From contig NZ_FMHZ01000002.1 of assembly GCF_900090315.1 (NCBI RefSeq), forward strand, positions 5,302,501 to 5,366,500: a DNA stretch of 64,000 bases, given 5' to 3'. Below are positions 31,367-46,467 of this stretch, in pieces (within the stretch, counting starts at the first letter, position 1; each line of letters opens with the position of its first letter). The notes beneath the pieces were generated by a model that saw nothing but the letters and a program-made list of their open reading frames with translations, did not search any database and was not told the DNA's origin. Made by a program: the position numbers and the translations under genes. The DNA is from Micromonospora citrea (lineage in GTDB: Bacteria; Actinomycetota; Actinomycetes; Mycobacteriales; Micromonosporaceae).

Positions 31367-31567
31367 ATGACGCGGTTACGGCGCGGTGGCGGCAGCCCCG
31401 GCGCGATCGTCGGCGTCCCCGCCCTCCGACGGGCGCGGGCGGTGCCGCCGGCGGCCCTCCGAAGGGCACGGGCGGTGCCGCCGGTGGGCCCACGGCGTTC
31501 GTGGCCTGCCTGCCTCGGACGGTCCCGGCCGGCGAGCCGGCGCCCGGTGCCGGGAGGGTCGCGGTGA
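31367..31567 (+). CDS. Small Arg/Ala/Pro-rich ORF coupled to M48 protease gene
   Basis: Reading frame of 66 residues in the gap before the protease gene. It has a TAGGAT hexamer at 31333-31338, a GGAGGGAG ribosome site six bases before the ATG, and its stop overlaps the next GTG start as GTGA. Residues about 20-40 are a duplicated A-L-R-R-A-R-A-V-P-P unit, coming from a 33-bp tandem DNA repeat. The product is strongly basic and unlike any family I know. It may be a real small protein, or serve mainly as a translated leader for the protease. Confidence 0.5.
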   Translation: MTRLRRGGGSPGAIVGVPALRRARAVPPAALRRARAVPPVGPRRSWPACLGRSRPASRRPVPGGSR

Positions 31568-44121: not shown

Positions 44122-45531
44122 GTGTCCACCTCCACCGACCACGGCCGGCCCGACCCGGAGGCGAGCACGCTCGCCCTGACCAGCGACGGCCGGCCGGTCT
44201 CCGACCGGGGCGACACGGTCTGCGTGATCGGCGCCGGGGCCAGCGGCCTCGCCGCCGTCAAGAACCTCAAGGAGCACGGGTTCGGCGTCGACTGCTACGA
44301 GCGGGAGACCGGCGTCGGCGGGGCCTGGAACTGGCGGCACGACCGCAGCCCGGTGTACGCCAGCACGCACCTGATCTCGTCGCGGCCCTTCACCCAGTTT
44401 CCCGACTTCCCGATGCCGGACGACTGGCCGGACTACCCGCACCACAGCCGGTTCCTGTCCTACCTGGAGCGCTACGCCGACCACTTCGACCTGCGCGGGC
44501 ACGTCTGGTTCGGCACCGAGGTGATCCGGGTGGAGCCGGTCGACGGCGACCGCTGGGACGTGACCACCCGCAGCACCGGCGGCTACGGCCCGGAACGCAC
44601 CTCCCGTTACGCGGCGGTGGTGGTCGCCAACGGGCACAACTGGTCGCCGAAGCTGCCCCGCTACGAGGGGCTGGAGGAGTTCCGGGGCGAGGTGATGCAC
44701 GCCTCGTCCTACAAGGACCCGGCGCAGCTGCGCGGCAAGCGGGTGCTCGTCGTCGGCGCCGGCAACACCGGCTGCGACATCGCCGTCGAGGCCGCCCAGC
44801 AGGCGTCGCGCTGCTGGCACTCCACTCGCCGGGGCTACTGGTACGCCCCGAAGTACGTCCTGGGCCGCCCCGCCGACCAGGTCAACGACGCGCTGCTGGC
44901 GTTGCGGGTGCCGTTGCGGGTGCGGCAGTGGCTCTACCACTGGACGCTGCGGCTGACCGTCGGCGACCTGACCCGGTTCGGCCTGCCGAAGCCCGACCAC
45001 CGGGTCTACGAGACGCACCCGATCGCCAACAGCCAGCTCGTCTACTACGTGGGCCACGGCGGGATCGCCCCCGTGCCGGACGTCGCCCGCTTCCACCCGT
45101 ACGCCGTCGAGCTATCCGACGGCCGGGAGATCGACCCGGAGCTGGTCGTCTTCGCCACCGGCTACCTGCCGCGCTTCGAGTTCCTCGATCCCAAGGTGCT
45201 CGGCGACGACGCGGGGACGGGCCGGCCCACGCTCTGGCTCAACGCCTTCGCCCCGGGCCACCCCACGCTCGCCGTCGCCGGCCTGGTGCAGCCGGACTCG
45301 GGCATCTTCCCCCTGTCGCACTGGCAGACGGTGCTCTTCGCCCGGCTGCTGCGGCTGCGCCTGACCCGTCCCGACCGGGCGGCGGCCTTCGCCGCCCGGG
45401 TCGCGGCGAAGGCGGGGGAGCGCTACTCCGGGCCGGTCAAGGACAGCAGCCGGCACTGGTTCGAGGTGGGTCACGCCGACTACCTGCGCGCGGTCCAACG
45501 CGCGCTGCACGACTTGGAAGGTTCCCGATGA
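44122..45531 (+). CDS. Flavin-containing monooxygenase
   Basis: FAD- and NADPH-dependent oxygenase of 469 residues. FAD loop G-A-G-A-S-G near 38-43, NADPH loop V-G-A-G-N-T-G-C near 211-218, and between them the FMO fingerprint F-R-G-E-V-M-H-A-S-S-Y (F-x-G-x-x-x-H-x-x-x-Y). It oxidises soft nucleophiles (N or S) or ketones; substrate unknown. GTG has a very strong AAAGGAGA site seven bases upstream. The stop overlaps an ATG that opens a repeated micro-ORF leading to a hydrolase gene. Confidence 0.87.
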   Translation: MSTSTDHGRPDPEASTLALTSDGRPVSDRGDTVCVIGAGASGLAAVKNLKEHGFGVDCYERETGVGGAWNWRHDRSPVYASTHLISSRPFTQFPDFPMPDDWPDYPHHSRFLSYLERYADHFDLRGHVWFGTEVIRVEPVDGDRWDVTTRSTGGYGPERTSRYAAVVVANGHNWSPKLPRYEGLEEFRGEVMHASSYKDPAQLRGKRVLVVGAGNTGCDIAVEAAQQASRCWHSTRRGYWYAPKYVLGRPADQVNDALLALRVPLRVRQWLYHWTLRLTVGDLTRFGLPKPDHRVYETHPIANSQLVYYVGHGGIAPVPDVARFHPYAVELSDGREIDPELVVFATGYLPRFEFLDPKVLGDDAGTGRPTLWLNAFAPGHPTLAVAGLVQPDSGIFPLSHWQTVLFARLLRLRLTRPDRAAAFAARVAAKAGERYSGPVKDSSRHWFEVGHADYLRAVQRALHDLEGSR

Positions 45532-45590
45532 GCGCGAGGAGTGCAGCGCAGCGGAGCCCCGCAGTCGCGAGTGGAAGGTGGGCTCGGTGA
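45528..45590 (+). CDS. Micro-ORF 1 of tandem repeat (20 residues)
   Basis: ATG at 45528 overlaps the monooxygenase stop (ATGA). The frame runs 20 codons (M-S-A-R-S-A-A-Q-R-S-P-A-V-A ...) and its TGA overlaps the GTG of the next micro-ORF. Its first 14 codons are identical at DNA level to those of micro-ORF 2 apart from the first base. It may be translated only to carry ribosomes onward. Confidence 0.5.
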   Translation: MSARSAAQRSPAVASGRWAR

Positions 45591-45629
45591 GCGCGAGGAG
45601 TGCAGCGCAGCGGAGCCCCGCAGTCGCGA
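45529..45629 (+). repeat. Tandem 42-bp direct repeat, 59-bp period
   Basis: Two perfect 42-bp copies at 45529-45570 and 45588-45629, each beginning TGAGCGCGAGGAGTGCAGCG. The period of 59 equals a 63-nt micro-ORF minus the 4-nt stop-start overlap, so each added unit keeps the chain of overlapping start and stop codons. It resembles, from memory, short intergenic repeats common in Micromonospora genomes. Confidence 0.85.
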
Positions 45630-45649
45630 ACGAAAGGCCGGAACAGTGA
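45587..45649 (+). CDS. Micro-ORF 2 of tandem repeat (20 residues)
   Basis: GTG at 45587 overlaps the stop of micro-ORF 1 and its own TGA (45647-45649) overlaps the GTG of the hydrolase gene at 45646. It has 20 codons, the first 14 shared with micro-ORF 1. The last six codons differ (N-E-R-P-E-Q). Confidence 0.5.
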   Translation: MSARSAAQRSPAVANERPEQ

Positions 45650-46467
45650 GTCAGGTGCGGGTCATGCGAGGGCGGGAGTGGGCCCGCCCGGTCCGTCCGG
45701 TCCGGCGTGAGGTGCTCGGCGTGGCCCCCGAGCTGGAGGAGGGGCGCCCGCCGCTGCTGTTCGTGCCGGGCTTCGGCCACGGCGCCTGGGCGTTCGCCGA
45801 GCACTGGCTGGGCCACGCCGCGTCGCGGGGCTTCCCGGCGTACGCGCTGAGCCTGCGCGGGCACGGCGGCAGCGGCCCGGCGCCGGAGGCGACGCTGCGG
45901 GCGTACGCCCACGACGTGACCCAGGTGGCGGCGGGGCTGCCGCGCCAGGCGGTGCTGGTGGGGCACGGCGCCGGGGCCCTGGTGGTCGCGCACGCGTTGG
46001 CCCGCTACCCGGCCCGGGCCGGGGTGCTCGTGGCGCCGGTGCTCGGTGGCTGGGCGACGTTCGGGGCCGCGTTGCGCCGCAACCCGCTCGGCACGCTGTC
46101 GGCGGTGTTCGGTGGGCCGCTGCGGTTGCACCGCCGCCAGCTGTTCAGCCGTGAGCTGCCGGAGGCGGAGGCCCGGGGGTACGTCTCCCGGCTGGGCCGG
46201 GCGGGCCGGCGGGCGCAGTGGCAGCTGCTGGCCGGGCGGGACGCGGAGCCGGCCGTGGGCGATCCGCCGGTGCTGGTGCTGGGCAGCCCGGACGACCGGG
46301 TGGTCCCGGCGGCGGCGCTGACCCGGGCGGCCCGCCGGTACGGCTCGGCCCCGCTGCTCTTCCCCGGGATGGGCCACGACATGATGCTCGACGCGCGGTG
46401 GCGGGAGCCGATCGACGCGATCCTGGACTGGCTGGAGAAGGATCCGGCGCCGGACGGCCGGCCCTGA
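45646..46467 (+). CDS. Alpha/beta hydrolase
   Basis: Protein of 273 residues with the alpha/beta hydrolase fold. The oxyanion region is F-V-P-G-F-G-H-G near 39-46, and the nucleophile elbow reads G-H-G-A-G near 107-111, so alanine-flanked glycine replaces the usual G-x-S-x-G serine; the acid is in S-P-D-D-R and the histidine in G-M-G-H-D-M near 240. Loss of the serine means ordinary esterase chemistry is doubtful. The GTG start is fixed by its 4-nt overlap with micro-ORF 2. It is downstream of the monooxygenase and probably co-expressed. Confidence 0.75.
   Translation: MSQVRVMRGREWARPVRPVRREVLGVAPELEEGRPPLLFVPGFGHGAWAFAEHWLGHAASRGFPAYALSLRGHGGSGPAPEATLRAYAHDVTQVAAGLPRQAVLVGHGAGALVVAHALARYPARAGVLVAPVLGGWATFGAALRRNPLGTLSAVFGGPLRLHRRQLFSRELPEAEARGYVSRLGRAGRRAQWQLLAGRDAEPAVGDPPVLVLGSPDDRVVPAAALTRAARRYGSAPLLFPGMGHDMMLDARWREPIDAILDWLEKDPAPDGRP

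Follow-up and report, generated by a model that had tools for sequence, protein, structure and literature searches.

The junction between a flavin monooxygenase gene and an alpha/beta hydrolase gene of Micromonospora citrea contains two copies of a short repeat, and raises the question of what such a repeat is and how it can be accommodated between two genes on the same strand. The window, meaning the whole 64,000-nucleotide stretch of DNA that was analysed, showed the following features at this junction, with positions counted from its first letter.

44122..45531, + strand: upstream gene, FMO-like flavin monooxygenase of 469 codons, putative start GTG44122 (PF00743, E 4.9e-63)
45516..45521, + strand: GGAAGG, Shine–Dalgarno-like, 6 nt upstream of the first micro-ORF start (anti-Shine–Dalgarno duplex −6.9 kcal/mol)
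45528..45590, + strand: element copy 1, a 20-codon micro-ORF that starts at ATGA and stops in the next GTGA (sequence, TRF)
45573..45578, + strand: GGAAGG in copy 1, Shine–Dalgarno-like, 8 nt upstream of GTG45587 (duplex −11.9 kcal/mol)
45587..45649, + strand: element copy 2, a 20-codon micro-ORF with GTGA at both ends (sequence, TRF)
45632..45637, + strand: GAAAGG in copy 2, Shine–Dalgarno-like, 8 nt upstream of GTG45646 (duplex −9.1 kcal/mol)
45646..46467, + strand: downstream gene, alpha/beta hydrolase of 273 codons, putative start GTG45646 (PF12697, E 2.4e-21)

Positions 45529–45570 and 45588–45629 were identical at 42/42 bases, with an offset of 59 nt and no identity further on either side, and TRF described the array as having a period of 59, 2.1 copies and a score of 188. 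The monooxygenase stop (TGA, 45529–45531) was contained in the ATGA at 45528–45531. ORF 1 ran from ATG45528 to TGA45590 with 20 sense codons (MSARSAAQRSPAVASGRWAR), its stop lying within the GTGA at 45587–45590, and ORF 2 ran from GTG45587 to TGA45649, again with 20 sense codons (VSARSAAQRSPAVANERPEQ). In the GTGA at 45646–45649 the stop of the second micro-ORF overlapped the hydrolase start GTG45646, which is the predicted start, GTG45655 and ATG45664 being further in-frame possibilities. A previous reading of this DNA from the sequence alone (the sequence-only reading) had given the perfect 42-bp repeat, the period of 59, the two 20-codon ORFs and the ATGA/GTGA/GTGA joins exactly. Within the window the element profile matched only the two copies at 45528–45649. 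Another tandem repeat (33 bp × 1.9, 93 % matches) was present at 31421–31484, where the element profile gave no match.

When the genome was searched with 33 bases of the 42-mer, allowing up to three mismatches, nine sites in four tandem arrays were found, the window's two included, whilst the reversed-pattern control gave none. The 42-bp repeat is therefore one array of a dispersed family, chance being ruled out by this control. A 64-base unit matched 25/25 genomes of the genus, taken as Micromonospora in the broad sense of GTDB, at E ≤ 0.001, with between at least 6 and at least 50 matches in each and at least 40 in M. citrea itself, in agreement with the statement in the sequence-only reading that such repeats are common in Micromonospora. 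Across the Micromonosporaceae the repeat was present in at least 69/150 genomes and at least 25/44 genera; these counts, like that given below for a second repeat, are lower bounds, part of the first-look candidates having been scored. No match was obtained at E ≤ 0.001 in 16 genomes representing other families within the order, a sample too small for exclusion. In the M. citrea genome the family occupied 28 array loci, the weakest match having an E value of 0.03, and a variant 3 nt shorter, with 19 codons and a period of 56, was common. Phage and plasmid collections searched with the repeat yielded no match in either, and spread on phages or plasmids was rejected on this basis.

The genomic context of the element was compared in two sets of arrays, in which same-strand genes were called by a codon-usage score trained on 141 long ORFs and are not curated genes. 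The first set comprised 66 arrays, of which 28 came from M. citrea, the window's included, and 38 from other genomes, the latter picked from the best matches and so leaning to full-length copies. Fifty-seven of the 66 lay in sense between two same-strand genes; in the rest, only the downstream gene was clear in three cases and only the upstream gene in two, two arrays followed an opposite-strand gene, one was antisense and one was unclear. The second set, taken by name (Micromonospora, Verrucosispora, Micromonosporaceae), consisted of 80 of 111 stretches with 99 arrays, chosen by an exact 33-base match and consequently long-type, and 13/99 arrays were dropped at locus edges; 75/86 lay in sense between same-strand genes and none was antisense. 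Four of the 66 arrays also occur in this named set.

Some loci had features of their own. The antisense array (L204, positions 2407895–2408118 of the M. citrea genome) had four copies at a spacing of 55 nt (1 mod 3), lacked RTGA and was bordered by reverse-strand coding on both sides. The argJ junction was a recurrent site, with arrays of one to four copies upstream of the gene in five genomes (L018, L212, L213, L214 and L231); in the one of these in which the upstream partner was examined (L018), it had semialdehyde dehydrogenase domains and was ArgC-like. In L040:1501–2424 and L200:1562–2956 the element was in frame with the downstream gene, giving a possible N-terminal extension of ~18 residues that may be annotation noise or a real fusion.

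The position of the element relative to the neighbouring genes was highly regular. The upstream stop fell exactly on the RTGA of the element in 49/57 same-strand sense arrays of the first set and in 61/75 of the named set, and copies elsewhere are thus not random relative to stops and starts, in line with the sequence-only reading. A full relay, in which stop and start codons overlap from the upstream gene through to the downstream gene, was found in 50/57 arrays (the window's included; 20/23 in M. citrea alone) and in 68/75 of the named set, and failed in seven arrays of each set. Among 133 ordinary same-strand pairs in 400 kb of the M. citrea genome, 32 were direct overlaps and eight had a relay via intermediate ORFs, one of the eight (L252) being itself an element.

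Because GC-rich DNA is poor in stops, a relay arises easily in any sequence with RTGA at its two ends and a length other than 1 mod 3. In simulated deletions the relay survived a 1-nt loss in 610/3300 trials and a 2-nt loss in 2921/3300. Given this high rate of chance relays, the telling facts are the RTGA at both borders, the sense orientation and the avoidance of lengths that are 1 mod 3. Periods with RTGA at both ends were 54, 56, 57, 59 and 60 nt, with 59 and 56 accounting for 65/92 and none of the 92 being 1 mod 3, in a count that excludes the antisense period-55 array by requiring RTGA at both ends and that includes the window's array twice. In the named set, the 38 arrays with more than one copy likewise had only periods of 0 or 2 mod 3. 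Periods that were multiples of 3 made up 16/52 in the named set and 22/45 in other arrays, and with such a period the copies fuse into one longer ORF (of 60 or 80 codons, for example) that ends on the next start. The formula '63 minus 4', proposed for the period from the M. citrea copies, did not hold as a general rule, given that 60 is a common period and that 57 and 54 are found as well.

The monooxygenase/hydrolase junction itself was followed through the genus. The hydrolase was matched at E ≤ 1e-60 in 147/151 genus genomes, and the monooxygenase junction was read in all 147, the window's own among them. The relay was scored by a script that proceeded from stop to overlapping start to stop until the hydrolase frame was reached, which occurred in 144/147 junctions and nearly always via a −4 RTGA. 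The number of intervening micro-ORFs in the 144 complete relays was 0 (69 junctions), 1 (58), 2 (7), 3 (7) and 4, 5 and 6 (one each), so that the coupling does survive differences in copy number, as had been suggested from the sequence. In the three broken relays, the last stop had no overlapping start (L116 and L133) or the monooxygenase stop was TAA (L184). Sorted by script, the 147 junctions comprised 68 empty sites (spacer ≤22 nt), 35 with short-type and 27 with long-type inserts, six with another repeat and 11 with unassigned spacers, and up to six element copies were found at a single junction. For inserts of ~40 nt or more, 66/68 junctions had the relay, compared with 31.4/68 expected from dinucleotide shuffles at constant length (a null of 46 %), the shuffle spanning the monooxygenase stop to the aligned hydrolase start, which in some genomes is a few codons off the real RTGA.

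Presence and absence of the insert changed repeatedly at this one junction. Most empty sites consisted of a simple overlap, AAGTGA or AAATGA, and empty RTGA sites were also found in relatives of element-bearing genomes (13 hand-chosen pairs). The gene tree implied at least 29 changes of the empty state, 21 of them forced by well-supported branches, although this tree was built from 485 columns of one flanking gene pair and recombination could inflate the count. From the tree, 73 genome pairs on separate paths were formed, of which 53 differed in junction length. Both members kept the relay in 50 of these 53 pairs, and in 36/38 where the difference was 20 nt or more, whilst the relative reading frame changed in 32/53 (a difference not a multiple of 3), indicating that the two genes are free to shift in relative frame while the chain stays. 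The last monooxygenase codon encoded R in 22/27 long-type junctions, compared with K in 32/35 short-type junctions and 62/68 empty sites; its frequent alteration with long-type inserts indicates that insertion was not always clean at the RTGA, and the moving piece may begin upstream of it.

The strength of the Shine–Dalgarno sites was estimated as duplex energy with the anti-Shine–Dalgarno sequence, the 16S tail sequence having been located in the genome (SSU rRNA in L257 by Rfam). Hydrolase starts preceded by an element had a median energy of −9.8 (n=59), the same as empty sites (−9.8, n=67); for the starts of internal micro-ORFs the median was −11.75 (n=30), and for RTG triplets within gene bodies, as control, it was −2.7 (n=1777). 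An AAAGG-like core lay 8 nt upstream of the start in 49/59 post-element hydrolase starts. As post-element starts have a Shine–Dalgarno sequence as strong as that of empty sites, the element replaces the one that it displaces from the downstream gene.

The explanation that we favour, and consider likely to be correct, is that the two copies at the M. citrea junction are tandem units of a MIRU-like repeat interspersed in Micromonosporaceae genomes, tolerated as a self-contained termination–reinitiation cassette. The unit would start with an RTGA that provides both the stop of the previous gene and the start of its own ORF, continue stop-free for ~15–20 codons, and end with a Shine–Dalgarno sequence followed, after ~8 nt, by an RTGA that is its own stop and the next start. 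Lodged where the stop and start of two operon genes overlap by 4 nt, such a unit would leave the upstream stop, the downstream start and the hand-over of ribosomes intact at any copy number. With the hand-over intact, the unit would be tolerated at overlaps and rarely kept elsewhere, and tandem copies would be harmless while their period is not 1 mod 3. Ribosomes would presumably travel along the chain of micro-ORFs to reach the hydrolase.

Untranslated spacers can allow Rho-dependent termination to cut an operon, an effect known as polarity, and the chain could instead serve to keep the spacer translated, with the hydrolase initiating independently from the Shine–Dalgarno sequence of the element. 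The strong Shine–Dalgarno sequence at normal spacing after elements makes such independent initiation possible, and the fused long ORFs, for example those of 60 or 80 codons, cover the spacer equally well. However, 144/147 junctions have kept the stop/start overlap at the final boundary, an overlap that would be superfluous if the spacer had only to be covered, and we regard this explanation as somewhat unlikely.

It could also be that the repeat is a neutral parasite in which the RTGA-to-RTGA design alone guarantees the relay, with no later selection for coupling. Periods 59 and 56, i.e. 65/92 of those recorded, relay automatically, and clearly decayed inserts were few, both of which fit neutrality. 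Against it stand the spacers at the junction that match neither repeat, of which 10/11 still relayed through ORFs of odd lengths, and the relays intact in both members of 50/53 length-differing pairs. A neutral origin of the relay is judged unlikely, and under the cassette explanation selection, beyond the design of the unit itself, would keep the relay in place.

The potential of the repeat to fold was also considered. A single copy folded no better than shuffled sequences (z −0.23), the consensus fold was weak (−3.94 kcal/mol, with 3/100 column shuffles equally good) and Rfam at gathering threshold identified no family in the loci L018, L047 and L131; an RNA hairpin or attenuator was rejected on these grounds. 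The names BIME and RAYT are used for REP-type elements and their transposases. A REP/BIME-like palindromic element, acting as a DNA or RNA hairpin and moved by a Y1 (RAYT) transposase, would share with the Micromonospora repeat its short length and many copies per genome (PMC2817692, in its account of REP/BIME elements and RAYTs), and the weak consensus fold could be taken in its favour. The Micromonospora element, in contrast, has no strong palindrome, as the single-copy fold shows, and a domain search for Y1_Tnp (PF01797) gave nothing in the M. citrea genome and matches in 8/25 genus genomes, whereas the element was present in all the same 25, making this a very improbable explanation. The unit presumably spread by insertion; the term 'self-propagating' in the sequence-only reading goes beyond the search for a mobilizing enzyme, which covered PF01797 as the only family and identified none in the M. 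citrea genome.

The synonymous fraction of changes in the encoded peptide was 0.294, 0.169 and 0.203 in three length classes, compared with 0.244 for random change, and variability of the repeat showed no clear concentration at third codon positions, so that the micro-ORF peptide looks unselected. That the 20-residue SARSAAQRSPAVANER-like peptide is a functional small protein is thus exceedingly unlikely, for although the sequence is conserved across copies, with an in-frame stop in 1/89 distinct bodies, there is no synonymous excess and ORFs one codon shorter or fused are common.

A second repeat family with the same layout was found at the hydrolase junction. A GAGCGAGCG-type repeat, which the profile of the first element does not match, was present in 6/147 junctions (L106, L086 and L067 among them). 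This repeat (GTGAGCGAGCG...) is 84 nt long and mostly has 27 codons (once 26, once 29), with a tandem spacing of 80 (84 − 4), again from RTGA to RTGA. It was found in at least 34/37 genus genomes and in none of 24 genomes of other families. The repeat also occurred at L370–L383. Of 25 further loci, five were without the search motif, and 13 of the other 20 had both flanking genes clear and on the same strand; the relay was present in 12 of these 13 usable cases. The tail-like sites of the second repeat paired with the anti-Shine–Dalgarno sequence at a median of −9.0 (n=31). Both repeats start with GTGAGCG, and a remote common origin may be conceivable from this shared start. At least two Micromonospora repeat families would thus share a start-to-start cassette with a Shine–Dalgarno-like site. 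We tentatively suggest, at slightly less than even confidence in the two parts together, that insertions generally find a safe harbour in stop/start overlaps and that selection at operon junctions holds the ribosome hand-over constant, not the distance or the frame.

Location in sense between same-strand genes is a defining trait of the mycobacterial interspersed repetitive units (MIRUs), and it is shared by the Micromonospora arrays (57/66 and 75/86). MIRUs (Supply et al., 1997, via PMC12548453 and PMC3635867) are described, in the part of a 2025 review that cites Supply 1997, as apparently mobile and as inserting at start codons, with an internal ORF that is coupled to the gene with −4 spacing, minimizing the impact of insertion (PMC12548453). 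The element resembles them in being a short repeat at many loci with varying copy number (here 28 loci in M. citrea and 0 to 6 micro-ORFs at the hydrolase junction) and in having an ORF with a 4-nt overlap with the adjacent start. It differs in belonging to Micromonosporaceae instead of mycobacteria. The Micromonospora unit carries a Shine–Dalgarno sequence ~8 nt before the next start. As the likeness was drawn from descriptions of MIRUs and not from sequence, the element is classed as MIRU-like and not as a MIRU.

The suggestion in the sequence-only reading that the stop–start logic might be undescribed does not stand, since −4 coupling is already given for MIRUs in the review passage cited above (PMC12548453). 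The repeat itself is a separate matter: no description of it was found in searches of open-licence PMC papers or in the text of two Micromonospora genome papers, which is weak evidence of novelty. Two other reports bear on the same arrangement. Shell et al. (2015; PMC4633059) reported mycobacterial small ORFs that the RTGA tetramer links to the gene downstream. Those counted there stand at the beginning of leaderless transcripts, unlike the interspersed repeats considered here, which lie between genes of an operon, and the term MIRU is absent from the main text of that paper. Stop/start overlaps, often with a Shine–Dalgarno sequence in the 3′-terminal part of the preceding gene, also feature in the sections of Huber et al. 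(2019; PMC6728339) on termination–reinitiation, which there concerns native gene pairs with no interspersed repeat.

With the Micromonospora element, the MIRU principle is carried outside the mycobacteria. The monooxygenase/hydrolase locus, a single junction compared across 147 species with anything from 0 to 6 ORFs between the genes and a free relative frame, represents a natural experiment on whether selection maintains translational coupling. The repeat may account for the SARSAAQRSPAVANER-like micro-ORFs and the N-terminal extensions that recur in Micromonospora annotations, and the element suggests natural bicistronic linkers.
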